Positions 33,661-50,523 of a stretch of DNA of 64,000 bases are shown piece after piece (position 1 is the first letter of the stretch; every line of letters begins with the position of its first letter). A program made the position numbers and the translations under genes. The stretch is from Paraglaciecola psychrophila 170 (GTDB taxonomy: Bacteria; Pseudomonadota; Gammaproteobacteria; Enterobacterales; Alteromonadaceae): the NCBI RefSeq assembly GCF_000347635.1, contig NC_020514.1:1922001-1986000 (forward strand), in the 5' to 3' direction. The notes beneath the pieces were generated by a model. It was not told where the DNA came from and did not search any database. It worked only from the letters and a program-made list of their open reading frames with translations.

Positions 33661-33723
33661 ATTCTGTCTCCTTTCATAAACATTAGTATTAACAGTATCT
33701 TAATTTTAGAGTACCATAAATTG

Positions 33724-34482: not shown

Positions 34483-34966
34483 TGATGAGTAATAAAACTT
34501 TTTCACCCTCATTAACAATTCAGTTTACTCAATAGCTCACTTATTAGATTGGTTGACCTTGACGCCCCTTGTACCCTCAGATTCCATGTTGATAAGCTTG
34601 TTATAGAAAAACTTAAACTCGCTATATTTTATTTTTTGTTGCTCTCAACACTGTTGATAATAATTGCTTTGGCTCAATTTACTTATCTTGTAGTTTGTGA
34701 GGATTGATGAAATGTAACACTCATCTAGTATCGATTTCCAAAGTGATAGTATGACACCTCAATAAAGAACCTTCATCTATGGAAGACAGCAACAATATAC
34801 GTTTGTATACGGAATGTTGCTGTCTGGCGCGATTTTAAACAATTTAGAGCGTGGCAAATTATCCCAATAATTGCAGTAATGACGTCGATGTCGTTCCCTG
34901 TAAAATCTATAAGAATTACCACGTAACTGTTTTGCCTTTATAACTTTAACTACGCTGAGCGTTATT
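34483..34966. other. 484-bp intergenic region with a hairpin at 34785-34824
   Basis: GACAGCAACA (34785-34794) pairs with TGTTGCTGTC (34815-34824) around a nested TATAC/GTATA stem. It could terminate the ABC permease transcript or mark a small RNA. A short plus-strand frame ending at about 34707 contains one hydrophobic stretch (FYFLLLSTLLIIIALA) but has no convincing start, so it is not called a gene. Confidence 0.4.
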
Positions 34967-36205
34967 TTAACTTTTAGCGGATAAAGTTGAATGCAGGGCA
35001 TTCTTATAAGCTTCAAAAGCAGGAATGGTCGAGGTAATAATAGACGCGATAAGTATAATCCCAATTGCCATCAATGCTTCCATAGACAACAAATTAGCAC
35101 TGAGAAAAAGGCCATATTCTGATGCTAGCCAATCCCCCAAAAGAGCTAAGGTTAGGCTAATGGTAATCACCGATGCAACAATAGCAAAACACACTAAAAT
35201 TAATGCTTCAATCAGTACTAAAGAAAAAATCACGCCCGGTCCTGCACCCAATACCCGTAATACCGCAATTTCTGATTTTCTCTGATCCATCGATGCTAGC
35301 AGCATAGTAGACAAGCCAAACAATGAAGCAAATAGCACTAAGATGCTAATTACGCGCAGTAAGTTTTCAAAGTTTGCCATCATGCTCCATAGTTCTGACA
35401 TGGCAACTCCAGGTAAGATAGCCATCAACCGATCATCTGCATAACTGTTAATATTTCGTTGCAAGGTAAAAGTAGCGAACTTAGATTTTAAACCTAACAT
35501 CACCGCGGTTACATTGTTTGGGCTCAAGTCGACGGCATCGACATCGTTTATAAGTTGCCTGAGCTTAGCCGGAGATAAATGAATGGCTTCAATCGCTTCT
35601 AAAGTCACATGTAATGATTTGTCAACGGGTGTGCCTGTTGGTTTAAGTATGCCACTGACTACAAAAGGTGTGTCGTCATGATGCTTAAAGCTGACCGAAC
35701 CCACACCATGAGCGACCACTATTTCGTCACCCACTTGGTAGTTGTATTCTTTCGCCACGTCAATGCCTATGACTACCTCAAAAAGACTAGAAAAAGCCTG
35801 TCCCTGTACAAATTCTAGCGGTTGTTTTTTGCCATATCTAAAGTGAGTAAAGTAGTCTTGGGTAGTGCCAATCACCCTAAAACCATGATGCGAATCACCT
35901 AATGATATTGGGATAGCCCACTCTACCTGTTGATTATTTTGCAGAACTTTAAAGCTTTCATAATTGATATTATTAGTGGGACTGCCCATTCTAAAAACGG
36001 AGTAAAGCAACAAATTAAGCTGCCCACTAGGCGCCCCTACTATTAAATCAACACCGGATACAGTGCGACTAAAACTCTCTTTTGCTTGTTGTCTTATGTG
36101 CTCCACACCAAGTAACACACTGATGCTGATCAGAAGACTGAAAAAAGTCAGTAAAATCGATTTACGTCTATTTTTAAGGCTACTTACCGCCAAAGACATC
36201 AACAT
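34967..36205 (-). CDS. ABC transporter permease, FtsX/MacB type, in the zinc island
   Basis: 412 residues: one N-terminal helix, a periplasmic MacB-like domain (about 45-270), then three C-terminal helices with the FtsX core SMDQRKSEIAVLRVLGAGPG. Such type VII permeases transmit mechanical work across the membrane rather than passing a solute. Its start overlaps the end of the ATPase gene by 7 nt, so they form one transporter. The pair lies behind a Zur box. In Vibrio cholerae a comparable pair belongs to the zinc-regulated Zrg system (from memory), so a part in zinc acquisition is inferred. Confidence 0.88.
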   Translation of the reverse strand: MLMSLAVSSLKNRRKSILLTFFSLLISISVLLGVEHIRQQAKESFSRTVSGVDLIVGAPSGQLNLLLYSVFRMGSPTNNINYESFKVLQNNQQVEWAIPISLGDSHHGFRVIGTTQDYFTHFRYGKKQPLEFVQGQAFSSLFEVVIGIDVAKEYNYQVGDEIVVAHGVGSVSFKHHDDTPFVVSGILKPTGTPVDKSLHVTLEAIEAIHLSPAKLRQLINDVDAVDLSPNNVTAVMLGLKSKFATFTLQRNINSYADDRLMAILPGVAMSELWSMMANFENLLRVISILVLFASLFGLSTMLLASMDQRKSEIAVLRVLGAGPGVIFSLVLIEALILVCFAIVASVITISLTLALLGDWLASEYGLFLSANLLSMEALMAIGIILIASIITSTIPAFEAYKNALHSTLSAKS

Positions 36206-36927
36206 ACAGTTGACCCCTGTGACTGCTTCAGCGAATGAATATCAATACTGGACGAAAAATAGTGCTTTAAGCTCATATCGTGACTAACAAAAAGTAGGGT
36301 AGTGAGCTTAGACCGGCAAATATCTAATAGGATGCGCATGAAGGTATCTCTTGCTCCTGCGTCAAGTGCAGAAGTTGGTTCATCTACAATTAATAATTCA
36401 GGTTGATTAATCAAAGCCCGGGCTATCGCAACTCTTTGTTGTTGCCCAACACTGAGTTGACTGGCTTGCTGCTGTAAAATACTCGTGGGTAGCTTTAACT
36501 CTGTTAGTAATTGCGTAGCACGGCGTTCAATATCGTCAGACTTTTTAGCAAAGTACCCGGCGACCATAATATTTTGCAGCACGGTTAAGTAGGGGATCAA
36601 ATTAAACTGCTGGAAAACCACACCTATATGCCGGGCTCTAAATTGATCTCGTTTACGGGCAGAAAGGCCAGAAAAAGTTTGGCCCAATAGTCTCACTTCG
36701 CCTGTTTGCGGAGTCAAGATACCTGCAATCAAATTCAACAAAGTGGTTTTGCCCGAACCTGATTCACCATGCAAAAACACATGATCCCCATGCTGTATTT
36801 GCCAGTTCTCAATTTTCAAATCGATACTGCCTCTAGTATAACCATGTTGTAGATTTTCAACCTCGATCGACAATGGCTGAGACGTTACTCTATCCGTCAC
36901 ACTCGTGGAATTTTCGTTTAACTGCAT
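36199..36927 (-). CDS. ABC transporter ATP-binding protein (LolD/MacB type), Zur-box controlled
   Basis: 242 residues. Walker A is GESGSGKTTLL, the signature LSVGQQQRVAIARAL, Walker B LLIVDEPTSALD and the H-loop FVSHD. It starts 35 bp from the palindrome ATGTTATAACAT, placing it and the following permease under likely Zur control. It would energise the FtsX-type permease. Confidence 0.92.
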   Translation of the reverse strand: MQLNENSTSVTDRVTSQPLSIEVENLQHGYTRGSIDLKIENWQIQHGDHVFLHGESGSGKTTLLNLIAGILTPQTGEVRLLGQTFSGLSARKRDQFRARHIGVVFQQFNLIPYLTVLQNIMVAGYFAKKSDDIERRATQLLTELKLPTSILQQQASQLSVGQQQRVAIARALINQPELLIVDEPTSALDAGARDTFMRILLDICRSKLTTLLFVSHDMSLKHYFSSSIDIHSLKQSQGSTVC

Positions 36928-36961
36928 ATGCTGTTCATTTCTTCGCTAACCCGTAATGGAT

Positions 36962-36973
36962 ATGTTATAACAT
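36962..36973. promoter_or_regulatory. Zur box between the ABC operon and the first DUF3299 gene
   Basis: ATGTTATAACAT is a perfect palindrome in the TATGTTATAACATTAC context and closely follows the gammaproteobacterial Zur consensus of TGTTATA/TATAACA half-sites. It sits between divergent starts at 36927 and 37009 and could repress both. Confidence 0.75.
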
Positions 36974-37008
36974 TACACAATATAAATATTGAGTAATTTA
37001 TTTTGATT

Positions 37009-37594
37009 ATGCAATCGTACATCGGCAAAGCAGGGCTGTGTTTTTTATTGCTTCCCTTGCTTATCTCTTTGGCCAACGCCAAATTGCCAGAAAAAGATCA
37101 GAACTTCCAAACAACTGACTGGGTAGCCTTAATCCCTAAAGATGATCTGGACGCGCTGCTTAATCCACCTGATTTTCTTAGTGATATTGCAGATGGCTCG
37201 GATCAAGATTCGGTGGATTTATTGCAAAAAAAACACGAAGTTAGATGCCCAAGGTAAACGATTCCAAGAAGCGCTTGTGTCTACCACAGTGGTCAGCGAA
37301 TATGATGGAAAGTCCATCCGTATACCTGGCTTTATAGTACCTCTTGAGAGCGCAAATGAAAGAATGGTGACGGAATTTTTTATTGTCCCGTATTTTGGTG
37401 CATGTTTACATATGCCACCTCCTCCACCTAACCAAATTATTCATGTTGTTGTGAATGAAGGAATTGAGCTAGAAAATTTATACGACCCGTTTTGGTTTGA
37501 AGGCCGTTTGGCACTTAAAATCATCGAAACAGAAACCGGCTTATCGGCCTATTCAATGACACTACATCAAGTTATTCCATATCAAGAACCGTAA
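37009..37594 (+). pseudogene. DUF3299 family exported protein, frameshifted at an A8 run
   Basis: ATG 37009 begins a signal peptide (GLCFLLLPLLISLANA). The frame is lost at the A8 run 37226-37233; removing one A joins DLLQKNTKLDAQGKRF and restores a protein of about 194 residues. The C-terminal frame carries the family signature PYFGACLHMPPPPPNQIIHV. No other lesion is present, so a read error is possible. DUF3299 proteins are secreted and of unknown biochemistry, and one is linked to zinc-regulated transport. A second, intact copy lies at 39227. It directly follows a Zur box. Confidence 0.88.
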
Positions 37595-37607
37595 TTGGAG
37601 AATTTAA

Positions 37608-38078
37608 ATGACGATTAAACAATGCTTTTTTATCATAGCTATGGTGTGCATTCCGGCCATGTTATTGCCAGCATTCGCTTGTGATTTACATGGCTCAGGT
37701 GGCTATGGATTTAGCCCATTTGGGCCACGTTTTTCAATGCTTGATCGCAATGAAATGGATAGAAATCAACATAGCATTGCAAAACTAAGTATTACTCACG
37801 ACCGTTTTTTATCTGTACCTAACGGTTCGCCCTCAGTATTGGCATTCTCATATCAAATACCCAACTCATTTATTAACGTCAAACTTCAGTTTAGTAGCGA
37901 TAAAGATATCGATTTGTTTAAAGATTCAGAGGTTATATTGACGAAATCCAGTGGGGTTTATAAGTTACACTTCGTTCCTAAGGAAACTGGCGAGCAGCAT
38001 ATTAAAGTGCACATTACCGGATTAAGTGATGCAAGTTCAGTCGATGAAGAACGCCAAATTACAGTGCGCTCAATCTAA
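37608..38078 (+). CDS. Exported protein of unknown family in the zinc operon
   Basis: 156 residues with a signal peptide (CFFIIAMVCIPAMLLPAFA, cleavage before Cys-Asp-Leu-His). The mature part is beta-rich with a Ig-like look (KLHFVPKETGEQHIKVHITG). A short Gly/Phe segment HGSGGYGFSPFGPRFS lies at its N-terminus. It follows the first DUF3299 gene by 13 bp with an SD (TTGGAG), so the two are co-transcribed. Function not recognised; a periplasmic partner of the transporter is an inference. Confidence 0.7.
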   Translation: MTIKQCFFIIAMVCIPAMLLPAFACDLHGSGGYGFSPFGPRFSMLDRNEMDRNQHSIAKLSITHDRFLSVPNGSPSVLAFSYQIPNSFINVKLQFSSDKDIDLFKDSEVILTKSSGVYKLHFVPKETGEQHIKVHITGLSDASSVDEERQITVRSI

Positions 38079-38139
38079 TCAACTCGCAAATTGATACCCC
38101 ACAGCGTGTTTTGAAAAAAATGCCATGGGTTTTGGACAC

Positions 38140-39150
38140 TTACTTCTCTGCAAAAAGTGTATTTTCCAAGATATCGACGATTTGGTTAAGTGCTAACTGT
38201 CCTGTGGTGATGACCTCAAGTCGTGAGTCCATACTTTCATCTAGTTCGTTACAACTGATCACTTCATCGAGCTTATTAAAGGTAAAAATGCCTTTGTCGG
38301 TTATCATCACGGCTTTTAAACGATATACATCCAAGGTCGTTAGTTCACTCATTACTTGCCTGAAATCGAACACTTTGTCGGGGCGAAATGCCCAGCCACA
38401 AGAATAGAAGTCATCTTTAGCATTACTCACTTTTACTTTGCCATGGTTTGATAACTCTTCTTCTATATCCATTAATTCAGCACTGACGCCGTGCTCATGA
38501 TGGTTAGTCTCAGGCAGCTTAAACTTCGTTTTAGAAGAGAGTATGGATAACGCAATTTTGTTGTTATCCAAAACTGTAAGTGGTGTTGTGGCTAAATCTA
38601 ATTGAGTAAGATATTTGGTTAGATTTGCCTGATCATTCTCCTCATAAAGATCCGCTTTAGTTGCGATAATATGATCCGCAATTTCCAACTGTTCCCTAAA
38701 AACTTGATGTTGGCTATAACGTTCCTTTGTGACCAAGCGTGCATCAACCAGCGTGAGTGTGCTGTTGATAGAGAATGTATCTTGATAATGAGCTTGCTGT
38801 AAACTGGCCAACACTTCTTTGGGATGACCTAAGCCAGTCGGCTCGATGATCAGCCGATGGGGTTTGGCATAGGATACTAATTGATTTAGCGCGATTTGCA
38901 TGGGCAAACCTGATGTGCAACACATACAACCGCCGGGCACTTCTCGTACATAAATATTGTTTTCTGGACGGCCTTTAAAAAATGCACCATCAATGCCAAC
39001 TTCACCAAACTCATTGACTAAAATAGCCCATCTTTCGTTGGCAGGTTTCAGTGTTAATAAATGTTGGATAAGCGTGGTTTTTCCTGCACCCAAAAAACCC
39101 GTAATAATGTTAGTGGGAATTGGCAGTGTTTGTGAGGTCAATTTTTCCAT
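38140..39150 (-). CDS. COG0523/CobW family GTPase, probable zinc metallochaperone
   Basis: 336 residues. Walker A is GFLGAGKTTLI, the metal-binding motif GGCMCCTSG follows at about 74, the guanine specificity motif reads ATKADL, and a CobW C-terminal domain (about 225-325) ends the protein. The CxCC motif is the metal site of zinc-responsive chaperones such as ZNG1/YjiA/ZigA. It is divergent from the second DUF3299 gene across a near-perfect Zur box, supporting zinc starvation induction. Confidence 0.9.
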   Translation of the reverse strand: MEKLTSQTLPIPTNIITGFLGAGKTTLIQHLLTLKPANERWAILVNEFGEVGIDGAFFKGRPENNIYVREVPGGCMCCTSGLPMQIALNQLVSYAKPHRLIIEPTGLGHPKEVLASLQQAHYQDTFSINSTLTLVDARLVTKERYSQHQVFREQLEIADHIIATKADLYEENDQANLTKYLTQLDLATTPLTVLDNNKIALSILSSKTKFKLPETNHHEHGVSAELMDIEEELSNHGKVKVSNAKDDFYSCGWAFRPDKVFDFRQVMSELTTLDVYRLKAVMITDKGIFTFNKLDEVISCNELDESMDSRLEVITTGQLALNQIVDILENTLFAEK

Positions 39151-39198
39151 GGGTTTCCAATTAATTGATGTATGCTTATAGGATTCTTTAGTATTGTT

Positions 39199-39210
39199 AT
39201 GTTATATCAT
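39199..39210. promoter_or_regulatory. Zur box between the COG0523 GTPase and the second DUF3299 gene
   Basis: ATGTTATATCAT differs at one base from the perfect palindrome at 36962 and 45514. It lies between divergent starts at 39150 and 39227. Confidence 0.65.
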
Positions 39211-39226
39211 TATTATTCTGAGACCC

Positions 39227-39877
39227 ATGATTAAGTCCATTATTATTCTAATTATATTTTTGCTGTGTGGTGTGTGGGCAGGGCAGCACTCAAAAACGAT
39301 TTGGCGCTATATCGAACGTATTGTTATTGATGAACCTCCACTTTATGAGGCAAATAACACTGCCAATACTCAAGGTTTTTCTGCAGTACCTCTCATTACC
39401 ATTGGATGGAGCGAACTGTTACCAACAGAAGAAAAACAAATATTAAGTCGTTACCAGCAAAACTTGCCCACTGACTTAACGGATCAAGTTGTGTTGTCTC
39501 TGCAAGCGACTACAGATCAAGCCTACCAAGCGACGTTGCAGTCAACTAATATCGTTGAAAACTTTCTCAACAAAGCGATATCGATATCAGGGTTTATAGT
39601 GCCTATCGATGTGCAAGAGAATATAAATATGACTAGCTTTTTTTTAGTTCCTTACTTTGGAGCCTGTCTCCATTACCCTCCGCCACCACCTAATCAACTG
39701 ATTTATGTGACCCTTCCTGATGGCATGCCAGCAACCGATTTTCAAATGCCATACACAATTTCGGGCATTCTCAAAAAAGACTTATATGAAGACCCATTAG
39801 GCACCTCAGCATACAGCTTGGATTTATTGACGGTAGAAAAGTTTTATGAACAGCCAGATAATTTCCGTATGCATTAG
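39227..39877 (+). CDS. DUF3299 family exported/anchored protein, intact copy
   Basis: ATG 39227 (MIKSIIILIIFLLCGVWAG) gives 216 residues with an N-terminal membrane anchor or signal. The signature PYFGACLHYPPPPPNQLIYV matches the first copy at 37.4 kb, and an SGFIVPID segment precedes it in both. The frame is open upstream to a TTG at 39194 but that would overlap the Zur box. Same presumed role as the first copy in a zinc-responsive exported complex; the biochemical activity is unknown. Confidence 0.85.
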   Translation: MIKSIIILIIFLLCGVWAGQHSKTIWRYIERIVIDEPPLYEANNTANTQGFSAVPLITIGWSELLPTEEKQILSRYQQNLPTDLTDQVVLSLQATTDQAYQATLQSTNIVENFLNKAISISGFIVPIDVQENINMTSFFLVPYFGACLHYPPPPPNQLIYVTLPDGMPATDFQMPYTISGILKKDLYEDPLGTSAYSLDLLTVEKFYEQPDNFRMH

Positions 39878-39904
39878 TTTTTCTTGAAGTTAACTATATA
39901 CCCA

Positions 39905-40167
39905 AACCACCTCAATATGCGCGTTTTAGAACGACTGGGGCGCTTCAATTCAAGGCACGTCAATGACTGAATGTCGACCACCTTCTGAATTGGCGTAACG
40001 AAGAAGTGGAGTGCCCCAGCCGTTCCCTACGGGCGGGTTTTAAAGCGATTTATACGTCGTTGGCCATTTTTGACTTAGACCACTAGGTCTGAAAATAGCC
40101 GCCTCGCCTAGGAGGCCCCGCCTAAACCGCTTTAAATTCCCGCTGAATCCGACATCTTGAGGTGGTT
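39905..40167. repeat. About 260-bp palindromic element with terminal inverted repeats (MITE-like)
   Basis: The ends AACCACCTCAATATG (39905-39919) and CATCTTGAGGTGGTT (40153-40167) are inverted repeats with 14 of 15 matches. Inside, CGACTGGGGCGCTTC pairs imperfectly with GGAGTGCCCCAGCCG, and other GC-rich arms can fold. It is far richer in GC than its surroundings and has no open frame. Its right end contains the stop codon of the DUF839 gene. It looks like a non-autonomous mobile or structural repeat; a transposase was not found here. Confidence 0.75.
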
Positions 40168-41545
40168 AGAGTATAAAACTATCCCAAGGACCCGTTATGG
40201 CAACAGTAGTAGTCGGGGAATATAAGTTAACAAACAAGGTACGCCCATCTGGCGAAAAACAGGCACCTGCAGGCTCGGTTTGCAATCTTACGCGCGCCAA
40301 ATCATAGGTTTTTCCATCTGGCGTCACCCCTTTAATATGATTTTCTGTGTGATCAGTATATTGGTCTTCACACACAATTAAATGGCCATTAGGCGCTACG
40401 GTAACATTATCTGCAAAATTCATAGCTTGTGGATATTCACTTTCAACAAATAAACTCAGTTTGCCTGGACGCTTGTTTTCACTTGGACTACCTTCGACTA
40501 AAGAAGGCACGTAACGCATAATTTGTCCCAATTTTTTTGCACCGCCATTAGTGCAACAAAAATATAGTTCGTTATCACCCCAATGTATGCCTTCGCCTCG
40601 TGCAAATAGCGCTGCTCCTGCGTTAAAACCTCGTAACCTCAGGTCATCATCCGGACTTTCAGGATGATCCAACTCAATCCATTCAACGGCCATTTCTTGT
40701 TTTAATAGCATAGATTCTGAATGCCAGTTGCGTGTATCGAATTTAGGTTTTTGTGCTATCACCAATGCTTGCAAGCGACCACCAGCCTGTAAATTAGCTT
40801 TTTGATTGGGGATATAACGATAAATCAGGCTATCGTTTCTATCTTCGGTCATATAAACAATGCCCGTTCGAGGGTCAACACAAGCGGCTTCATGGTTAAA
40901 TCTGCCCATCGCTTTAATTGGGATGGCATTAACCATCTTAGTGGCATTGGCGGGTACTTCAAACACATAACCATGGTCTTTACTGATCATCTTGTCTGCT
41001 TTATCCACCGACTCTTCGCACGTCAGCCATGTTTCCCAAGGCGTAACACCACCAGAACAGTTGCGGATCGTGCCAATTAGCGACATAAACTGCTGTTCAA
41101 CACGTTTTGATTGCAGGTTGTAGACAATGGAACTGGTACCGCCGGGCAACGGATAAGTATTCTCAAAGGTGTCATAGGCAAACTCAAGCATCATAGCTTG
41201 CTTGTCACCATGATGTTTTTTGATCAGTTTATTGGCCGCGATTTCGTGATTTCTGATTAAAACTACTCGTTTATCATCAAGATAAAAACAACCCATACCA
41301 TCAGCACGATCAGGCACATCCAAGTCATCATGCATCTTGTCTCCCAGTCGCGATATAACCTGATAATTAAAACCAGAGGGTAAGTCTAATAACGCATTAG
41401 GATCAGGTATCAGTTTTCCGTATGCGGTATTTTGAGCCATAGCAGTTGTCTGCAAGCGAGACTGTGAGGCATGCAGATGTGATGCTAAGCCTCCAAACGC
41501 CATCGCGACTAAACCTTGATTAAATTGTCTTCTATTCATCATCAC
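40166..41545 (-). CDS. PhoX-like (DUF839) protein with a Tat-type signal
   Basis: 459 residues. The N-terminus NRRQFNQGLVAMAFGG is a twin-arginine signal, expected for enzymes folded with cofactors. The DUF839 propeller shows VLIRNHEIAANKLI, GGTSSIVYN, CEESVDKADK and GIVYMTEDRNDSLIYRY, and near the end LIVCEDQYTDHTENH. PhoX enzymes are calcium/iron phosphomonoesterases; activity here is inferred. The gene's stop codon lies in the TIR of the repeat element. It is 36 bp downstream of the exonuclease-phosphatase fusion gene on the same strand, suggesting a phosphate-scavenging pair. Confidence 0.82.
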   Translation of the reverse strand: MMMNRRQFNQGLVAMAFGGLASHLHASQSRLQTTAMAQNTAYGKLIPDPNALLDLPSGFNYQVISRLGDKMHDDLDVPDRADGMGCFYLDDKRVVLIRNHEIAANKLIKKHHGDKQAMMLEFAYDTFENTYPLPGGTSSIVYNLQSKRVEQQFMSLIGTIRNCSGGVTPWETWLTCEESVDKADKMISKDHGYVFEVPANATKMVNAIPIKAMGRFNHEAACVDPRTGIVYMTEDRNDSLIYRYIPNQKANLQAGGRLQALVIAQKPKFDTRNWHSESMLLKQEMAVEWIELDHPESPDDDLRLRGFNAGAALFARGEGIHWGDNELYFCCTNGGAKKLGQIMRYVPSLVEGSPSENKRPGKLSLFVESEYPQAMNFADNVTVAPNGHLIVCEDQYTDHTENHIKGVTPDGKTYDLARVRLQTEPAGACFSPDGRTLFVNLYSPTTTVAITGPWDSFIL

Positions 41546-41580
41546 CTTATCCTTATCCAGATCTTAATACAGAGAATTAG

Positions 41581-43212
41581 TTACCACGACCCATACATTG
41601 GGTTAGGCAATAAAATAAATATACGTGGTTGCTGCAACAACAAATCAGCGATATCGGCATCTTCTTGAGTCATGCTTGGAAAGTCCTTAATATTATCGCC
41701 CACGTGCATCAATATTTGCTGCGATCGCGACCATTCTTGTGTGCTTGTAGATGGTGTTTGGGGGCGGTAACAAGGTGCATTGCCCATTTCGACTTGTCGG
41801 CGGCGTAAGTCTTTGTCATTTATCATAGATTTGCCGTCAATAGCACGCTTATCTGCTTCGGCTCTACCTAACAAGCAGGTATTGCTTGGGGTAAGTGGTA
41901 AACCCAATGCGCGTAAATTCTGCCATGTGTATGACTCAACCTCTTTTTCTCGGTTGGTGATAAGGGCCAACTTGCAACCCTTATCTAATACCGTTTGAAT
42001 AAAGTCAGCAGTGCCCGGAACTAAACCAGCTGAGGCTTGTTTTACCCAGTTTTCCCACGTCTCGGGGATATAGCTAGCCCCCGTTTTATCCAGCGATACC
42101 TGATAAGGGCTATTATCTAGAATGGTTTCGTCTACATCCATTACCACCACCCAGCTATCTTTTTGTGGGGATAGTTGTTTTAGTGTGCTGGAAGCTTGTT
42201 GATAAATATCCTGAGTGAGAAATTGGTATTCTTTGCTGGTGGTTAACCATTTCACTGCTGGCGAAAGAGGCAATGGTTGTGCGCTAATCGACAGTGTGAC
42301 CGCACAATGATCACTCAACATGTCATCAACTTTCATATTGTCAAACTTGTGCGTTTGCGAGTGAAGCGTGACATAAGGTGACTGGAAACCACCCGCCAAA
42401 ACATGGTCGATAGGCGCCGGATAGTAAGGATGGCAACCTATCAAGTCGGCCGTGGTGTTAAACAACGTAGAGGCGCTGGCATTGGTATTAACAAACAGCT
42501 CTTGGGTAAGCTGATTATAAGGTGCACTTAAGCTATGGTTGAAGTCACCAAGAATTATGTAGGGCTGTTGGTCGCGTTCTTTTGCTTCTACCCATGCATC
42601 TAAAATCGGTGCCTGTTTGGCAAATACCTGACAGGCCTCTGAATCCGCTCGACTATAGTTATCCACAAAGCAGCCGCTCTTAAGATGCAGATTAAGAATT
42701 TCTGTCTCGCCCTTGGGTGTGGGTACAGTCACAGACAAACCATAACGTAAACCTTCTCTGTCTATAGCCAAATCAGCGTAGTTTTTGCTAGCTGAGATAG
42801 GTATATGTTTGCGAACCGCAAAAGCCACTTTTTGTTGAGTAGACAGGTTATCACTGCCTCGGCAAGCGTACGTTCGACTTGGCGCTCTATCAGATACAAT
42901 AATTTGCCATTCATCAGTGGCAAAAATTTGCTGTATTGCTTGTTTTGAAGCAACCTCTTGTAGAGCGAAAATATCAACATCTAATCTGTCTACGTAGGCT
43001 TTCATTGCATTAATTTCGGCTTGGCTACGGGGGGTGCAACCCAGTTCGGCAGGAAAGCTAAGGTGTTCAACATTCCAGGTGGCTAAGGTCATTTCATCAA
43101 AAGTAATCGGCTTAACCAACGGGACTGATTTTGCGGTGCGATGGCTATTGATTGTTGCCGAACAAGCCGTGCAAGTCAAAACGACTAGCGCCATACTTAA
43201 AAGGTTTTTCAT
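41581..43212 (-). CDS. Exported fusion of an endonuclease/exonuclease/phosphatase domain and a HAD acid phosphatase
   Basis: 543 residues with a lipoprotein signal (LVVLTCTACSA, Cys17). Residues about 40-310 form an EEP (DNase I-like) domain with LATWNVEHLSF, FALQEVAS, ILGDFNHSL and SDHCAVTLS. Residues about 335-540 form a class B/C acid phosphatase HAD domain with the nucleophile motif VMDVDETILDNSP and ITNREKEVE, ending HVGDNIKDFP. One protein could cleave extracellular nucleic acids or phosphodiesters and then dephosphorylate the products. Substrates are inferred. It pairs with the PhoX-like gene downstream. Confidence 0.87.
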   Translation of the reverse strand: MKNLLSMALVVLTCTACSATINSHRTAKSVPLVKPITFDEMTLATWNVEHLSFPAELGCTPRSQAEINAMKAYVDRLDVDIFALQEVASKQAIQQIFATDEWQIIVSDRAPSRTYACRGSDNLSTQQKVAFAVRKHIPISASKNYADLAIDREGLRYGLSVTVPTPKGETEILNLHLKSGCFVDNYSRADSEACQVFAKQAPILDAWVEAKERDQQPYIILGDFNHSLSAPYNQLTQELFVNTNASASTLFNTTADLIGCHPYYPAPIDHVLAGGFQSPYVTLHSQTHKFDNMKVDDMLSDHCAVTLSISAQPLPLSPAVKWLTTSKEYQFLTQDIYQQASSTLKQLSPQKDSWVVVMDVDETILDNSPYQVSLDKTGASYIPETWENWVKQASAGLVPGTADFIQTVLDKGCKLALITNREKEVESYTWQNLRALGLPLTPSNTCLLGRAEADKRAIDGKSMINDKDLRRRQVEMGNAPCYRPQTPSTSTQEWSRSQQILMHVGDNIKDFPSMTQEDADIADLLLQQPRIFILLPNPMYGSW

Positions 43213-43352
43213 GATCTTGGTTTCCGTGCAAGCTTGGTTGTTTTCTGTGATAAATACAAATTTTAGTCAAAGATATGCAAATACGATCGTCTGTGTTTGC
43301 AAGCACTTTGCATACGCTTAAATAAGTGTTTATATGCCGTTAATGTTAGGGC

Positions 43353-43778
43353 CTAGACACGAGAATTATCATGTTCTTGGTCATCACATTGACAGTTTTG
43401 TTGATTTCGGCACAACTGAAAATTACGATAATGTCCGTATGCAACAAACATGGCCCCAGCCACAGTGAGCAGCTTCTCCCATAGTTCACCGATTACCTCT
43501 TCCCCCAGTGCTACTGCTAGAACCAATGAGGTTAAACCAATCAATCCGTATTTTAGTAATTCGTATCTTTTATGCTGCTTGCATCCCATAAAAAGCGCAT
43601 AGATACTAGTAGGGATCACGGCAATAACCATCCATACATGAAACGCTTCATTATCCAAATTTAACGCAGCAAAGTTGGGTAACACAATCAATAAAAATGG
43701 TAATGCTAGGCAATGGATAGCACAGGTTAATGACAAGCCTATGGCCAGCTTATCGGCAAAAAATTTCATTGAGTTCAT
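43353..43778 (-). CDS. MerC-like integral membrane protein (zinc island, copy 1)
   Basis: 141 residues, four transmembrane segments, the first with CAIHCLALPFLL, the Cys-x-x-x-Cys-like pair placed as in MerC mercury transporters. The C-terminus is rich in Cys and acidic residues (CRNQQNCQCDDQEHD). No mercury genes are nearby; placement by zur and zrgA suggests a zinc or related metal role. It shares about half its positions by eye with the second copy at 45.1 kb. Confidence 0.78.
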   Translation of the reverse strand: MNSMKFFADKLAIGLSLTCAIHCLALPFLLIVLPNFAALNLDNEAFHVWMVIAVIPTSIYALFMGCKQHKRYELLKYGLIGLTSLVLAVALGEEVIGELWEKLLTVAGAMFVAYGHYRNFQLCRNQQNCQCDDQEHDNSRV

Positions 43779-43864
43779 AAATTGGCATCTCTGGTAAGCA
43801 TTTTTCTTCCTTTGTTTACGTGTTGTGGATGTTAGTCATATTGAAGTTGGTCATCTTTGGCGGT

Positions 43865-44356
43865 TTATACTTTCAGCTTGCACCTTATATTGGCAGGTTT
43901 GATTGCTGCTTCTTTGCATTCATCACAGACACAATCCATTTCAAGTTTCGAATTAACCACTTGAAATCCTGCTTGTTTCACATTTTTTTCAAGTGCTTGA
44001 ATAATGGAAAAGTCAATGCTGATTTCTTCGACTTTCTGACATTTGGTGCAAATTAAAAATTGCGGTTGATGGTTGTGATCACAAGGTATGTGCGAACAGG
44101 CCACGTACTTGTTAGCTATCTTTAACTTGTGTGCCAGATTTTCTTCTTCAAGAAAGTCTAATATTCGATAGACTGTCATGGCAGGTATCGTTTCGCCAAA
44201 TTCCTTCTTACAGAAATCGACCAATTCATAGGCAGAAAGTGCTTTGCCAGACTTCAAAAGGCCAGCTAAAACCTGCTTTCGCTTATCGGTCAAACGTGTG
44301 CCATGAACTTTACATTGTCGCTCTGCTTGGTTAATGATTGCATCCAGCTTATTCAT
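43865..44356 (-). CDS. zur: Fur-family zinc uptake regulator Zur
   Basis: 163 residues. The winged helix spans about 20-90 (HGTRLTDKRKQVLAGLLKSG, then IPAMTVYRILDFLEEENLAHK as recognition helix), and the metal/dimer domain follows with CTKC and CDEC forming the structural zinc site. It fits Zur rather than Fur by the segment SAYELVDFC and YVACSH. It lies between the two MerC-like genes and zrgA, and the surrounding operators match the Zur consensus. Confidence 0.88.
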   Translation of the reverse strand: MNKLDAIINQAERQCKVHGTRLTDKRKQVLAGLLKSGKALSAYELVDFCKKEFGETIPAMTVYRILDFLEEENLAHKLKIANKYVACSHIPCDHNHQPQFLICTKCQKVEEISIDFSIIQALEKNVKQAGFQVVNSKLEMDCVCDECKEAAIKPANIRCKLKV

Positions 44357-44364
44357 GACGTGGC

Positions 44365-44973
44365 CTAAAATGTTATCGTTTTATTACTGCGGGTAAGGGA
44401 TGCCGCACCTTGCTCCGATGTTGTTATCCAGATGCCATTAATCTGCTGCATGGCAGGAAACACATCAAAAAAACCAAGGGAAATTGACGACAACTCATCC
44501 ATGTCTTCACAGTCGTAATAATAATGCGCGACGATTTCACTGTGGTCGCCATGCTCATCCTCATCCTCGTGCTCATGACTATGGTCAAGGTCGCTTTTGT
44601 GGTGATCGTGAGTGTGAGCGTCTTTTTCTGTTGTTTTGTGTTCGATTAAATCTGACAGGTCTATCTTAGCTTGAGTAAGTCTGCAGCCCCCTGAAGAAAA
44701 TGAAAAAAGTGCTTTGTGGTCATTCAACTTTACTTCTGATTGTTTCACCTTTCTAATTTGTTGCTCTGTGCTCGCTTTATGTTCAAAGCCAACGATATTG
44801 ATTGCCGGCGATCGTAATTGCATTTCGAGTTTGTTTCCCCCAATGACAATATTAAGTTCAGACACACCATGCACATGTGCACTTAAATTTGCTTGTTGAG
44901 CATGGGCCATAGATAGACAAGAAACCGCAAAGATGCTTGAAAAAACACCGACACTCGTTCGTATTGTTGTCAC
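44365..44973 (-). CDS. ZrgA-type zinc uptake protein (DUF2796), His/Asp-rich
   Basis: The GTG start at 44973 behind AAAGGGG gives a signal peptide (VGVFSSIFAVSCLSMAHA) and about 202 residues; the frame continues to 45060 without a signal-like start. The N-terminal AHVHGVSELNIVIGG and an acidic histidine-rich loop (about 115-145, repeated H-D/E-H) mark DUF2796 proteins, periplasmic zinc binders of the Zrg system. It overlaps nothing but lies 8 bp before zur, so both are probably co-transcribed. A weak Zur-like half-site lies at 44991-45006. Confidence 0.85.
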   Translation of the reverse strand: MTTIRTSVGVFSSIFAVSCLSMAHAQQANLSAHVHGVSELNIVIGGNKLEMQLRSPAINIVGFEHKASTEQQIRKVKQSEVKLNDHKALFSFSSGGCRLTQAKIDLSDLIEHKTTEKDAHTHDHHKSDLDHSHEHEDEDEHGDHSEIVAHYYYDCEDMDELSSISLGFFDVFPAMQQINGIWITTSEQGAASLTRSNKTITF

Positions 44974-45046
44974 GTTACTACCCCTTTTCAACGTTATAAT
45001 TAGTGTGTTTAGAACAGTATTGATTAAGCTTTCAATTCCGCACATT

Positions 45047-45457
45047 TTACTGAGTTTCATGTTTGACGCGGCTTAATTGGTAGTTTCGAAAGTGCCCATG
45101 AGCGATGATCATAGAGCCCAGTACGGATACAACAACTTCACCTGTCTCGCCTAATACACCATGGCCTAAGGTGGTTGATATAATAATCAACGTAAGTCCA
45201 ATAGAGCCCACTAGAAAAACCTTATAACTGCGGTGATGTAAGTAGCCCATCATTAATGCCGCAATACTGATAGGCAGAACTGCGTATAACATCCACTGGT
45301 GAAACATTTTGTCATCTAAAGCAAATAATCCAGAAAAAGGTGGCAGTAAGATAAGCAGTATTGGCAATACCAAACAATGCACCACACATACTATTGAAAA
45401 ACCTATAGCCAATTTATCACTTAGTACTTGCAGCTTTGTCATTTTCAAATCTTTCAA
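45047..45457 (-). CDS. MerC-like integral membrane protein (zinc island, copy 2)
   Basis: 136 residues with four transmembrane helices and CVVHCLVLPILLILLPP in the first, matching copy 1. An internal ATG (MTKLQVL) at 45442 is an alternative start. It is the first gene of the minus-strand cluster merC-zrgA-zur-merC and starts 23 bp from a Zur box. Metal specificity is inferred from context. Confidence 0.78.
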   Translation of the reverse strand: MKDLKMTKLQVLSDKLAIGFSIVCVVHCLVLPILLILLPPFSGLFALDDKMFHQWMLYAVLPISIAALMMGYLHHRSYKVFLVGSIGLTLIIISTTLGHGVLGETGEVVVSVLGSMIIAHGHFRNYQLSRVKHETQ

Positions 45458-45479
45458 ACCCTTAGGTTGATTACCTTAT

Positions 45480-45525
45480 TGTTATAATATAACATAACGT
45501 CAATAAAAGTAAAATGTTATAACAT
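45480..45525. promoter_or_regulatory. Two Zur boxes between the MerC/ZrgA/Zur operon and the TonB receptor gene
   Basis: TGTTATAATATAACA (45480-45494) is a perfect 7+1+7 palindrome equal to the core Zur consensus, and ATGTTATAACAT (45514-45525) is identical to the box at 36962. One lies near each divergent start (45457 and 45546). Confidence 0.85.
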
Positions 45526-45545
45526 AACGAATGTGGAGAAGGAAA

Positions 45546-48104
45546 ATGTTTAAAGTTTCATCATTAGCGGTCATTGTTGCTGCACTGCTGCCGGCTAGTG
45601 CGTTTGCGCAATCCATAGAGGGAGTTGTAAAAAATAGTTTTGGAGAACCGATTGCAGGCGCCAAAGTAAAGCTAGAAGGCTCCAGCATTGAGGCCATTGT
45701 TGATACAAGCGGCCGATTTGTGTTTGAAGGGTTGAGTCCGGGTGTTAACGAACTGCATATAACAGCAGCGGGCTTTGCCCACCTGCATCAAGATATTGAA
45801 GTTCCGAGTTCTGGCACGAAAAATATATCATTCATGTTAAAAAATTCTCCCATTGAAGTGGTTGATATTGTTTCAACCCCGCTGCATTTATCCTCAATGG
45901 AATCGGCTTTGCCGGTGAGTGTGTTATCTGGAGAAGCATTGCGTCGTGAACAAAGCGGAACTATCGGTGAAACCTTGAATAGTCTGGTAGGTGTGCACTC
46001 TAGCTTTCATGCCAAAGTCGCCAGTACGCCAATCATTCGAGGGCTAAGTGGGCCTAGAGTATTGATTACACAAAATGGTCTTGATGTGAGCGACGCATCA
46101 CGCATTGGCCCAGACCATGCTGTCGCTAGTGAAGCATCCACTGCTACACGGATAGAGGTTTTACGTGGTCCAGCCACCTTATTTTATGGCAGTGGTGCTA
46201 TTGGTGGGGTGGTCAATGTGGTGGATAACCGTGTACCAACCGACAGCGAAACACGAGGCGAATGGTTAGTTCAAACCAGCACAGTCGATGACCAAAAACT
46301 TGCATCATTTAATCTGACTACTGGCACTGATAACTTTGCATTTTATGCAGATGGTTTTGTACGCGACTCAGACGACTATGAAATACCTGTCGAAGCCGAA
46401 TCTCATGAAGATGATCACGACGACCATGATGATCACGACGAGCACGAAGAACACGGTGGTAACTATACCGTTGAAAACAGTTCCGAAGAGTCATACGGCT
46501 TCACTTTTGGCGGTAGTTACTTATTTGATGATGGCTTTGTCGGTTTGTCAGTTGAAAAACTTGATCGGCAATACGGTATTCCTGGCCATTCACATGGCGA
46601 AGAAGGACACGAAGGTGAAGACCATGACGATGAAGACCATGAAGAAGAGCATCACGATGAAGAGCATTCAGAGGAGAATGTTTTTGCCGATCTTAAACAA
46701 ACACGGGTACAGCTTTTAAGTGAATTTGATCTGCAAAATAGTTTTATCAATCAAATTAAGTTACGTGCCGGTTTAACGGACTACGAACACGCCGAAATTG
46801 AAGAAGGACAAGCGGGTACTGTATTTGAAAACCAAACGCAGGAATTTCGAATAGACGCTCTGCACCAACCTTTTCAAGAGTGGCGCGGCGGGTTAAGCCT
46901 GCATTACAAACACAGTGAATCCTCAGCCGTAGGCGAAGAAGCTTTCACTCCTCCATCAGACACTAGCATGCTGGCGTTAGCTTTAATGGAAGAGCGACAC
47001 TTTGGTGACGTTTTATTGCAATTAGGTGGACGTATCGAGCGGGTAACCTTGGAAGCCAATGATGTTCTGCTATCCAATATTGAGTTGCACGCTGAAGGAG
47101 AGCATGAAGACGAGCACGATGACGAACATGAAGGCGATCATGATGAACACGATGACGATCATGATGATGAACATGGCGGCGAATCGTTTGCGTTTAATGA
47201 AAATTATACGCCTATATCATTATCCGCTGGTGCAGTCTGGAGTTTTGCTCCCGAGTACAATGTTGGTATTTCTGTCTCCCGTTCTGAGCGCGCACCCTCT
47301 GCGGCAGAGTTGTTTTCGTTTGGTCCGCACATAGGTACTGGTACTTACGAAGTAGGCGCTTTGTTTGAACTGCATGAAGAGGACGACGAAACCCATATTG
47401 AATTGTCGAATATGACAATCGAACTTGAAACCTCGAATAATATTGATCTGACGTTCCGTAAAACAGAAGGTGATGTTGGCTTCATATTTAATGTTTTCTA
47501 TAACAGTATCGATAACTACTTGTATCAGCAGGACAGTGGTTTAGTGGTGCATGTTGAAGCCCATGATCATGGGGAATCTGATGAAGAGGAACATTCGGAT
47601 GAAGAACATTCAGACGAAGAACATTCGGATGATGAAGATTCACATGAAGAAGGAAGCGAATTACCCTTGTTTGTGTTCAATCAACAAGACGTAGTGTTAA
47701 ATGGCTTTGAAGCACAAATTGCATGGCAAGTGAACAGCGCGTTTAAAACTGAAGTATTTGCTGATTTTGTCCGAGCCAGACTCAAAGATGGTGGTAATCT
47801 TCCAAAAACGTCGCCAATGCGTTTTGGCACTAAGCTGAGTTATGAAAACACGCAGTTGAGCGCGCACTTGAACATCACTCGTTATCAATCGCAAGAGCAT
47901 ACTGAGGAATATGAGTCTTCAACCGACGGTTACACCATGCTTGATTTAAATGTGTCTTACGACATACCAGCCTATAATATGGCGGTCTACTTTAAAGGTA
48001 ACAATCTAACTGATACAGAAGCACGTGTGCATACTTCCTATCTGAAAAATTTAGCGCCAAGACCCGGCAGAAACCTAAGCCTTGGCATAAAAGGATACTT
48101 CTAG
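45546..48104 (+). CDS. ZnuD-like TonB-dependent zinc receptor with His/Asp/Glu-rich loops
   Basis: ATG 45546 follows GGAGAAGG and gives MFKVSSLAVIVAALLPASAFA, a signal peptide; the ATG at 45531 is less likely. The mature protein (about 830 residues) has a carboxypeptidase-regulatory-like domain (about 22-95), a TonB plug (about 115-225, IIRGLSGPRVLITQNG) and an outer-membrane beta-barrel ending in Phe. Four extracellular segments are runs of His, Asp and Glu at roughly residues 284-304, 348-378, 517-545 and 672-703, suited to catching zinc. It is downstream of two Zur boxes and resembles neisserial ZnuD. Confidence 0.9.
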   Translation: MFKVSSLAVIVAALLPASAFAQSIEGVVKNSFGEPIAGAKVKLEGSSIEAIVDTSGRFVFEGLSPGVNELHITAAGFAHLHQDIEVPSSGTKNISFMLKNSPIEVVDIVSTPLHLSSMESALPVSVLSGEALRREQSGTIGETLNSLVGVHSSFHAKVASTPIIRGLSGPRVLITQNGLDVSDASRIGPDHAVASEASTATRIEVLRGPATLFYGSGAIGGVVNVVDNRVPTDSETRGEWLVQTSTVDDQKLASFNLTTGTDNFAFYADGFVRDSDDYEIPVEAESHEDDHDDHDDHDEHEEHGGNYTVENSSEESYGFTFGGSYLFDDGFVGLSVEKLDRQYGIPGHSHGEEGHEGEDHDDEDHEEEHHDEEHSEENVFADLKQTRVQLLSEFDLQNSFINQIKLRAGLTDYEHAEIEEGQAGTVFENQTQEFRIDALHQPFQEWRGGLSLHYKHSESSAVGEEAFTPPSDTSMLALALMEERHFGDVLLQLGGRIERVTLEANDVLLSNIELHAEGEHEDEHDDEHEGDHDEHDDDHDDEHGGESFAFNENYTPISLSAGAVWSFAPEYNVGISVSRSERAPSAAELFSFGPHIGTGTYEVGALFELHEEDDETHIELSNMTIELETSNNIDLTFRKTEGDVGFIFNVFYNSIDNYLYQQDSGLVVHVEAHDHGESDEEEHSDEEHSDEEHSDDEDSHEEGSELPLFVFNQQDVVLNGFEAQIAWQVNSAFKTEVFADFVRARLKDGGNLPKTSPMRFGTKLSYENTQLSAHLNITRYQSQEHTEEYESSTDGYTMLDLNVSYDIPAYNMAVYFKGNNLTDTEARVHTSYLKNLAPRPGRNLSLGIKGYF

Positions 48105-48139
48105 TCTGCGTAGTCTAGAGTATGTTTACACCAAGTAAG

Positions 48140-48173
48140 TGTCTGCATCCTTGATGGATGCGGACAGTTTTTT
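48140..48173 (+). terminator. Terminator of the TonB receptor gene
   Basis: TGTCTGCATCC and GGATGCGGACA form an 11-bp stem with one G-T pair and a 5-nt loop, followed by a T6 run. Confidence 0.88.
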
Positions 48174-48403
48174 CTATCTAAGGTTTGGGACGAAAAACTT
48201 TCCTGAGAAAGTAAGGTATTAATTTCGATTTTGTCCTAGGGAGCACACTAATATTTACATCGTTATGCTTATGTGCAGGGCTATAATCAGATAAATAATA
48301 TACTGAAAACAAACGAGCACTTAATGGTAAGACACAAAAGAATTACCTATAGCTGGGAAGCTTCCCCATGGAGGGCGTTGTTAAATTCTTTCAAAAATCA
48401 CAG

Positions 48404-48426
48404 TCGTAGATAGCTACGATTTTTTT
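48404..48426 (+). terminator. Orphan plus-strand terminator upstream of metG's 3' end
   Basis: TCGTAG and CTACGA (6 bp) flank ATAG and are followed by seven T. It is separated by about 230 bp from the receptor terminator. Confidence 0.65.
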
Positions 48427-48492
48427 CATTGGATTTGGCCCGCATCATAGCTCCTATATTGTGTTTCAATGATGCGGTTCACTTGTTTTCTG

Positions 48493-50523
48493 TTACTTTA
48501 CCTTCATTCCAGGCTGCGCACCGTCATCTGGATTCAATATCCATATCTCTTCCCCACCAGGGCCAGCAGCTAGTACCATACCTTCGGACATGCCAAAACG
48601 CATTTTGCGCGGCGCTAAATTAGCTACCATTACCGTCAACTTACCTTCTAAGTCTTCTGGTTTATATGCTGATTTAATCCCAGCAAACACCTGACGCGTT
48701 TCACCGCCTAAGTCCAACTCTAAACGCAGTAACTTATCTGCTTTCTCTACATGTTCTGCCTTAACAATACGAGCAATACGCAAATCAATTTTTGCAAAAT
48801 CATCAAAACTAATTGTTTCAGCTATTGGATCTTTAGCCAATGGACTATCGGGATCCTGCTGCACGGTTGGCTCTAAGTTTTCTTTTGAATCATCAATCAT
48901 AGCGTTAACTTTATCCATATCTACCCTTTGCATCAGGGCTTTAAATTTATTGATAGGGTGATCAGTTAACACACTTTGTGAACTTTTCCAGCTTAGTTCA
49001 TCGTTTAAAAATGCTTCAGATTGACTAGCCAAAATGGGTACCACCGGTTTTAAATACACCACTAAAATGCGAAACAAATTAATACCTAACGAACATACAT
49101 CGTGGGTAAATTTCTGTTTGGTTTCGTCTTTAATCGTCACCCATGGTGCATTTGTATCAATAAACTGATTCGCTTTATCAGCCAATGCCATAATTTCACG
49201 AATAGCTTTGTTATACTGACGTTTTTCAAAGGCCTGAGCGATGCTCGCTTCTGCTTGATGAAATTCTGCCACTAGTTCTGGTTCCAGCACGTTACTGGAT
49301 AACTTGCCGTCAAAACGCTTGGTGATAAAGCTAGCGCAACGACTGGCGATGTTTACAACTTTGCCGACTAGATCTGAGTTTACTTTTTGTGCGAAGTCTT
49401 CAAAGTTAAGATCAATATCTGATACTGCATCACTGAGTTTAGATGCGAAGTAATAACGTAAATATTCAGGATTCAGATGGTCTAAATAGGTGCGCCCTTT
49501 AATAAAAGTGCCTTTTGATTTAGACATTTTGGCACCGTTAACAGTCACAAAACCATGTACATTAACAGCACTAGGTTTTCTGAAGCCTGCGCCTTCAAGC
49601 ATGGCTGGCCAAAATAAACAGTGGAAATAGGTAATGTCTTTACCAATAAAGTGGTAAAGCTCCGCTTCCGAATCTTTATTCCAATACTCATCAAAATTCA
49701 AGCCGTCTGTTTTATCACAGAGGTTTTTAAAGCTGGCCATGTAACCAACTGGGGCATCTACCCACACATAAAAGAATTTGCCAGGAGCATTAGGGATCTC
49801 AAAACCAAAGTAAGGGGCATCACGGCTGATATCCCATTGCTGCATGCCTTCTTCAAACCATTCTTTAAGTTTGTTGGCAATTTCTGGTTGCACAGCGCCG
49901 CTTTGTAACCAGTCTTGCAGCATATCTTGAAATTGAGGCAAGTCGAAAAAGTAATGCTCAGAATCACGCAATACTGGCTCTGCACCTGATACCACTGAAC
50001 GAGGATTCTTTAACTCAGTAGGGTCATACGTGGCACTACATACATCACAGCTGTCGCCATTCTGGTCTTCTGCGCCACACTTCGGACAGGTACCTTGAAC
50101 AAAACGATCTGGCAAGAACATTTCTTTTTCAGGATCGTACAACTGACTAATAACCCGCTTACTGATATAACCTGCGTCATCTAAACGGTTGTACACCAAC
50201 TCGCAAAGTTCTTTGTTTTCGTCTGAGTGAGTGACATGGTAGTTGTCATAATTTATGCCAAAATCAATTAAATCTTGATGATGTTCGTCACGGGTTTGCG
50301 CCACCATTTCTTCAGGTGTAATACCGAGCTGTTGTGCCCTAAGCATAACAGGCGTGCCGTGGGCATCGTCCGCACAGACGCTGTAACAGCTATGGCCGCG
50401 CATTCGCTGAAATCTTGTCCATACATCGGTTTGAATATGCTCTAAAAGATGGCCTAAATGAATAGAGCCATTGGCATAGGGAAGGGCACTGGTAACAAGG
50501 ATTTTGCGAATTTGTTCTGGCAT
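48493..50523 (-). CDS. metG: Methionyl-tRNA synthetase
   Basis: 676 residues matching the E. coli dimeric form (677). Class I motifs [12 protein letters not shown] and [11 protein letters not shown] are present; the zinc knuckles are [17 protein letters not shown]. The C-terminal 110 residues are a tRNA-binding (EMAP-II-like OB) domain ([17 protein letters not shown]). It is divergent from apbC. Confidence 0.97.

Follow-up and report, generated by a model that had tools for sequence, protein, structure and literature searches.

CxxHC-type MerC proteins of a Zur-linked zinc-starvation cluster in Paraglaciecola psychrophila 170 as candidate zinc importers

The genome of Paraglaciecola psychrophila 170 (5.41 Mb in a single contig, NC_020514.1) contains a 13-kb zinc-starvation cluster with Zur-box-like sites, which extends from position 34967 to position 48104 of the 64,000-nucleotide stretch analysed here (positions 1,922,001 to 1,986,000 of the contig; "the window" below), and which encodes two MerC-family membrane proteins with a CxxHC motif that are the main subject of this report. 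From left to right the cluster comprises zrgB and zrgC (reverse strand), a Zur box, and the genes for a DUF3299 protein (DUF3299a) and a small exported protein (forward strand); then a COG0523 GTPase gene (reverse), a Zur box, a second DUF3299 gene (DUF3299b, forward), and genes for a PhoX-type and a two-domain phosphatase (reverse); and finally the tightly packed genes of MerC1, Zur, ZrgA and MerC2 (all reverse), two Zur boxes, and the gene of a ZnuD-like receptor (forward). The genes named in a preliminary description of this DNA are all present where it placed them, and are identified here as those of a MacB/FtsX-type permease and its ATPase, two DUF3299 proteins (PF11736), a GTPase of the CobW/COG0523 type with a GGCMCC motif, two PF03203 (MerC) proteins, a Fur-family regulator, ZrgA, and a TonB-dependent receptor with four His/Asp/Glu-rich stretches; the two phosphatase genes inside the span were missing from its account. 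Its interpretation of the region as a zinc-starvation island with a Zrg transporter and an ABC (ATP-binding cassette) pair of mechanotransmission fold stands, but most of what it took as new has been published, the DUF3299 proteins as ZrgE and the FtsX/MacB-type pair as ZrgBC (PMC9817125, PMC9820375, PMC11481552). The cluster is a rearranged version of a recurrent Zur/Zrg cluster. Its new element is the MerC-like pair, originally ranked as one among several additions, which proves to be the most informative part, and the CxxHC MerC clade is what is worth following. The linkage of the cluster and its CxxHC MerC proteins to zinc is well supported.

Zur-box-like sites were located with the pattern TGTTATANNATAACA, allowing at most one mismatch. 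The window contains six pattern rows against 0.21 expected, and none of 100 shuffles attains six; five of the six rows, representing four sites, lie within the cluster and one lies outside it at 24378. The four sites, to which no strand is assigned, are at 36963–36977 between zrgC and the DUF3299a gene (one mismatch), 39195–39209 between the COG0523 and DUF3299b genes (one mismatch), 45480–45494 upstream of the MerC2 and receptor genes (exact), and 45515–45529 (a second box there, with one mismatch). The count over the whole genome is weakly informative by itself, with 27 rows versus 26 for the reversed pattern. The Zur-like regulator (43865–44356, reverse strand; PF01475) has Zur as its best NCBIfam match, at 87.9 bits where the cut-off is 167, and scores only 25.4 bits against E. 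coli-type Fur. From these sequence matches, Zur would be expected to bind at the predicted sites and to repress the adjoining genes.

MerC1 (43353–43778, reverse strand) and MerC2 (45047–45457, reverse strand) score 110.1 and 109 bits against PF03203, well above its cut-off of 27.6, and they resemble the MerC of mercury operons in this family membership and in being small helical membrane proteins. They differ from it in that CxxHC, together with His 116, replaces the Cys pair of the mercury-type GCAxCF motif, in the depth of the split between the two kinds (a long branch with support 1.0 in a tree built from 97 + 16 proteins), and in their neighbourhood of zinc genes. Residues C19, H22, C23, E101 and H116 of MerC1 are invariant in 59 of 59 CxxHC proteins, an alignment that was itself chosen by CxxHC; C19, H22 and C23 are also present in 121 of 121 proteins of a larger set, but that set was CxxHC-selected and includes duplicate loci, so the conservation claim rests on the 59-protein set. 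The two genes are not in a mer operon, their neighbours being zrgA and zur (no search for merA elsewhere was made). Structural comparison adds little: Foldseek gave no match for MerC at E ≤ 0.001, the VIA-align rows are helical bundles, a kind about which the tool itself cautions, and a search of PDB sequences with profile A3 gave two doubtful rows. The genome holds four MerC-family genes, and all four are at Zur boxes or in the zur string: for MerC2, MerC3 (genome positions 4342200–4342607) and MerC4 (4819603–4819929), a Zur box lies no more than about 70 bases from the start of the open reading frame (ORF), and MerC1 sits behind zur in the zrgA gene string. An exact Zur box precedes the gene string (4817240–4819995; L020) that encodes MerC4 together with a ZigA-type GTPase, a DUF1826 protein and a protein with a weak DsbB-like match. 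In the plasmid records examined, CxxHC proteins are annotated just as "MerC domain-containing". Our literature search, whose reach excluded most subscription literature, found no published link between MerC and zinc, and the accessible part of PMC12193353 treats MerC in the mer-operon context only.

The association of CxxHC MerC genes with zinc genes extends far beyond this genome. A MerC gene was scored as zinc-linked if it had a Zur box at its start or if a zinc marker lay no more than 5 kb away, the markers being genes for a Zur-like regulator, COG0523, DUF1826, ZrgA, DUF3299, ZrgB and a strong ZnuD-like receptor. In a held-out phylum set from outside the class sample (80 regions, in which 81 MerC places score 66 bits or more, weaker places being left aside and their genomes scored as lacking CxxHC MerC), our MerC profile recovered 75 of the 81 places, and the remaining six are mercury-type by sequence. 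Markers or boxes accompany 51 of the 72 CxxHC genes (38 if a lone Zur-like gene is discounted), versus none of nine mercury-type genes and none of 20 regions drawn at random from the same genomes; with an alternative limit of 3 kb the count is 50 of 75 over both MerC kinds. A Zur box is present at the start of 19 of the 72 CxxHC genes versus 0 of 658 control ORF starts. Two random regions (L253, L262) contain a ZnuC-like ATPase, at 393 and 397 bits, and others have weak receptor or ATPase matches; ATPases were excluded as markers in every group and the weak receptors fell below the threshold. The class sample, with the host genome omitted, gives 15 of 19 CxxHC genes versus 0 of 18 other MerC genes, a count that is partly circular because some regions had been fetched for Zrg. 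Of the 80 named loci closest to MerC1, collected with MerC as the sole bait, 76 had markers (73 discounting a lone Zur-like gene; 5-kb limit, with ZnuA accepted as an extra marker). The two closest are Paraglaciecola loci, and hosts of such loci include Pseudoalteromonas, Colwellia, Microbulbifer, Gilvimarinus and a Methylophaga metagenome-assembled genome. A frequent order at these loci is COG0523, DUF1826, ZrgA, Zur, MerC, COG0523, DUF3299, ZrgC, ZrgB. On a Catenovulum plasmid, two exact boxes accompany genes for MerC, DUF3299, ZrgC and ZrgB, and several Pseudoalteromonas loci consist of receptor, box and MerC only, with no Zrg gene within reach.

ZnuA (PF01297), ZIP and MerC were scored over the same 398 genomes, of which 300 have ZnuA. 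The distribution of ZnuA is complementary to that of CxxHC MerC: it is found in eight of the 59 genomes with a CxxHC MerC versus 292 of the remaining 339. All 14 other sampled genomes of the host's own family lack ZnuA and all 14 have CxxHC MerC, and the 18 CxxHC-MerC genomes of another family (f200) all lack ZnuA. Outside these two families ZnuA is present in seven of 26 CxxHC-MerC genomes, and ten of the 16 families with CxxHC MerC show no ZnuA in any sampled MerC genome. This pattern suggests the same role for CxxHC MerC. The two systems share Zur-linked zinc acquisition; unlike ZnuABC, CxxHC MerC has no ATPase of its own, and no sequence relation between them was found or expected. ZIP was considered as a general substitute for ZnuA and rejected: at E ≤ 0.001 it is matched in just 27 of the 59 MerC genomes, and several of these matches are weak. 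Zrg as the substitute is weakened by the presence of ZrgA in 0 of 99 f200 genomes (no control genome matched in that search; the same profile does match in the own-family search) and in only three of the ten ZnuA-less own-family MerC genomes covered by the ZrgA search. With 51 of the 59 genomes lacking ZnuA, and 27 lacking both ZnuA and ZIP, some zinc importer is missing in those genomes. Four genomes (G408, G493, G513 and G541) have a CxxHC MerC and no match for ZnuA, ZIP or ZrgA, although G541 nonetheless has ZrgB, ZrgC and DUF3299 adjoining its MerC.

Given the linkage to zinc genes, the absence of ZnuA and the added histidine ligands, the simplest interpretation is that CxxHC MerC imports zinc. 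Zinc belongs to the same group of elements as mercury and cadmium. PMC12193353 describes the MerC of mer operons as a carrier of Hg2+ into the cytoplasm, and the title of a work cited in PMC6416403 reports that Arabidopsis accumulated more cadmium with a MerC fusion. We incline, if only slightly, to the view that CxxHC MerC proteins are unrecognised Zur-controlled inner-membrane zinc importers which have replaced ZnuABC in most of the sampled own-family genomes and in family f200, that a C19/H22/C23/E101/H116 site serves them instead of the mercury-type Cys pair, and that with a ZnuD-like receptor they would make up a zinc route without an ABC motor.

Several observations weigh against this view. 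The P. psychrophila genome of the window itself carries ZnuA, and kinship among the sampled genomes inflates p-values. In the held-out set 21 of the 72 CxxHC genes have no marker at all, and 13 of the 51 that do have a Zur-like gene alone; the two of these that were checked are closer to Zur than to Fur, both below the cut-off. A CxxHC MerC gene on a Tolypothrix plasmid (L275, 6959–7369) adjoins an ArsR-type regulator and a heavy-metal P-type ATPase, surroundings unlike those of the Zur-linked genes, and a Sphingomonas plasmid MerC, whose CxxHC status is unchecked, has no annotated zinc gene nearby. Finally, Zrg can do without CxxHC MerC, which is absent from 11 of the 18 class genomes with both ZrgA and DUF3299.

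The last count also favours an explanation in which the cluster is an ordinary Zrg cluster, where ZrgABC, with ZrgA in the part of the binding protein, is by itself a complete ABC system for zinc import, and where MerC is only an accessory, such as an anchor, a sensor or a zinc buffer, that accompanies zinc genes. The zrg system of Vibrio cholerae needs ZrgA, which is interpreted as the binding protein of ZrgBC in the text of PMC9820375. The ZrgA of the cluster (44365–45060, reverse strand), a putative periplasmic zinc-binding protein with solved relatives 7ahw (PA4063) and 8ezw, scores 172 bits against PF10986 (cut-off 27.4) and 135.5 bits against the NCBIfam equivalog NF047873 (cut-off 185). 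However, ZnuA is absent also from MerC genomes without ZrgA, namely seven of the ten covered in the own family and those of f200; the Pseudoalteromonas loci without Zrg genes within reach show MerC with the receptor and box; and the fold of ZrgB is that of mechanotransmission ABC proteins. We regard the ordinary Zrg system as an unlikely explanation of the cluster, though the likeliest of the alternatives.

The evidence on ZrgB is as follows. The permease (34967–36205, reverse strand; 412 amino acids), identified by PF12704 and PF02687, by its predicted model, by fold search and by conservation, is 98% identical to a ZrgB of a Paraglaciecola sp., and its gene overlaps by seven bases that of the ABC ATPase ZrgC (36199–36927, reverse strand; PF00005). 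Its model (mean predicted local distance difference test score, pLDDT, 80.5) finds its best PDB fold matches among the type VII ABC permeases, LolCDE and MacB at E ≤ 1e-14 (Foldseek) and others besides, and like them it has an FtsX-type membrane part with a periplasmic domain after the first helix (PF12704, PF02687). This bears out the fold proposed in the preliminary description, but not the novelty of the idea, since the MacB likeness of the Zrg permease and mechanotransmission are already in print (PMC9820375; PMC11481552). ZrgB differs from MacB in having its ATPase on a separate chain, and from LolCDE, MacB and other type VII transporters in its invariant periplasmic histidines and its partners ZrgA and DUF3299. 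Histidines 166, 176 and 209 are invariant in 39 of 39 aligned proteins and in 20 of 20 of a set that takes in more distant relatives (35–52% identical to the window ZrgB), a conservation read within ZrgB proteins alone. The membrane helices, whose boundaries we drew from the predicted model, have no conserved His or Cys save H36 at the end of the first helix, which is kept in 36 of 39 proteins but in five of the 20 that include distant relatives; position 405 carries a His in 14 of 39. The conserved periplasmic histidines and the scarcity of ligands in the helices suggest that a machine handling zinc on its periplasmic domain fits better than a channel. Against this stand two (nearly) invariant glutamates in the helices, E280 and E333, which leave a metal path through them possible.

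The MacB fold also suits an explanation in which ZrgBC, as a MacB-type exporter, expels a metallophore, either free or complexed with its metal, and the cluster serves to recycle a chelator, as proposed for pyochelin-cobalt in Pseudomonas aeruginosa; the accessible text of PMC11481552 mentions mechanotransmission, models PA4064/PA4065 as a MacB transporter, reports that cobalt accumulates in the mutant, and favours export of the pyochelin-cobalt complex. We consider this improbable here, where the ATPase is a separate gene, where no MacA- or TolC-like partner or metallophore synthesis gene was found by family name among the ORFs of 33000–50500 (only the island proteins having been scanned), and where the genes that keep recurring alongside are those of Zur, COG0523, MerC, the receptor and DUF3299. 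It is just as doubtful that CxxHC MerC carries another divalent metal, such as cobalt or manganese, which stands in for zinc under starvation: cobalt can reduce zinc demand (PMC11481552) and control by Zur does not in itself tell which metal is carried, but the ZnuA-less genomes, many of them also without ZIP, argue otherwise, this being an argument and not a substrate test.

The cluster shares with Vibrio ZrgABCDE and P. aeruginosa PA4063–PA4066 the components ZrgA, ATPase, MacB-like permease and DUF3299 (ZrgE, found twice here as PF11736) as well as, to judge from its box-like sites, Zur-box control (PMC9817125, PMC9820375, PMC11481552). It differs from them in having two DUF3299 genes, in the arrangement of its genes in separate units, and in the addition within its span of zur, two MerC genes, COG0523, the receptor, the small exported protein and two phosphatases. 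No zrgD (DUF2607) match was found at E ≤ 0.001 among the ten island proteins scanned, small ORFs lying outside the scan; according to PMC9817125, zrgD is also absent from some Vibrionaceae.

DUF3299, which had been thought to extend the Vibrio system, was rejected as the new element of the island, because Table 1 of PMC9817125 lists it as zrgE of V. parahaemolyticus, where five zrg genes are up 76- to 206-fold under zinc starvation. DUF3299a (37003–37594, forward strand; PF11736, 143.7 bits for the downstream piece) is a single gene in two frames (ORFs 37003–37257 and 37142–37594) around an A-run near 37230; its counterpart in the same cluster of a close relative (L277) is unbroken, and the break is a fault of either the assembly or the strain. 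DUF3299b (39194–39877, forward strand; PF11736, 137.6 bits) has the first ATG of its frame near 39230 and a solved relative, 4hsp, with an OB-like fold (PMC8561739). C158 is kept in 76 of 77 aligned DUF3299 proteins and H160 in all 77. Scattering of DUF3299 away from DUF2796 (ZrgA) would have told against the preliminary description, and was not seen: among 185 class genomes, whose places were tallied by hand and association assessed by Fisher test, DUF3299 is present in 24, ZrgA (above cut-off) in 21 and both in 18, at most 8 kb apart in 16 of the 18. A third DUF3299 gene of the P. psychrophila genome (5076038–5076511; L025, 8039–8512) stands alone, with no ABC, ZrgA or Zur gene adjoining. 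A Phaeobacter plasmid (L274, 3072–6555) carries a bare Zrg core of Fur-family regulator, DUF2796, ATPase, permease and DUF3299, and tblastn with DUF3299b matches 175 plasmid records, chiefly of Rhizobium (98) and Phaeobacter (57).

The TonB-dependent receptor (45531–48104, forward strand; PF00593 and PF07715) has ZnuD (NF038289) as its best NCBIfam match, yet at 359 bits it is well under the cut-off of 950, and it bears an extra N-terminal carboxypeptidase-regulatory-like domain. A second ZnuD-like receptor gene, whose frame looks split into two ORFs, lies at an exact Zur box elsewhere in the genome (4667037–4669243; L019, 5038–7244). In the genome's znu locus (2147089–2156546; L021), znuC, znuB and znuA are accompanied by genes for a second Zur-like regulator, a COG0523 GTPase, a PepSY protein, and a TonB receptor preceded by an exact Zur box. 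The COG0523 GTPase of the cluster (38140–39150, reverse strand; PF02492, with CMCC) scores 75.5 bits against NCBIfam ZigA, for which the cut-off is 600; the GTPase of the MerC4 locus reaches it at 618.7 bits. The PhoX-type phosphatase (40166–41545, reverse strand; PF05787) and the two-domain phosphatase (41581–43212, reverse strand), with endonuclease/phosphatase and HAD acid phosphatase domains (PF03372 and PF03767), have relatives at some MerC or Zrg loci, and PhoX-like genes near MerC or Zrg are also found in L188, L333 and L119 (the same place as L323) and in the near relatives L276 and L277. PhoX is an iron/calcium enzyme, and it may for this reason spare zinc; the phosphatase pair (40166–43212), between MerC1 and DUF3299b, is possibly the zinc-sparing tail of the zrgA-zur-merC string. 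The small exported protein (37608–38078, forward strand; 156 amino acids) has no Pfam or NCBIfam family; it has 15 relatives at E ≤ 0.001, and the 12 that span the full query are 69–92% identical, so it looks lineage-specific.

Taken together, we propose with moderate confidence a Zur-repressed zinc-scavenging cluster with a mechanotransmission ZrgBC and with CxxHC MerC carrying zinc inward. Zur would repress the whole cluster, and the ZnuD-like receptor would carry zinc over the outer membrane into the periplasm, where ZrgA and DUF3299 (ZrgE) may bind it or pass it on. ZrgBC, as a type VII (LolCDE/MacB-fold) ABC machine and not itself a channel, would use ATP to drive a zinc-docking periplasmic domain, and the two CxxHC MerC proteins would take zinc across the inner membrane as mer-operon MerC does with mercury. 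COG0523 and the phosphatases may allocate or spare zinc.

Zrg is reframed by this proposal in that its ABC machine need not be a channel, which bears on the dispute between zinc import (Vibrio) and metallophore export (Pseudomonas). The MerC-type membrane proteins of the cluster, usually labelled mercury transporters, probably bring zinc into the cell, and in many relatives CxxHC MerC perhaps stands in for the standard zinc pump; zinc still has to enter genomes that have neither ZnuA nor ZIP. If this is true, it assigns a function to a large annotated family and identifies the zinc route so far missing from many bacteria.

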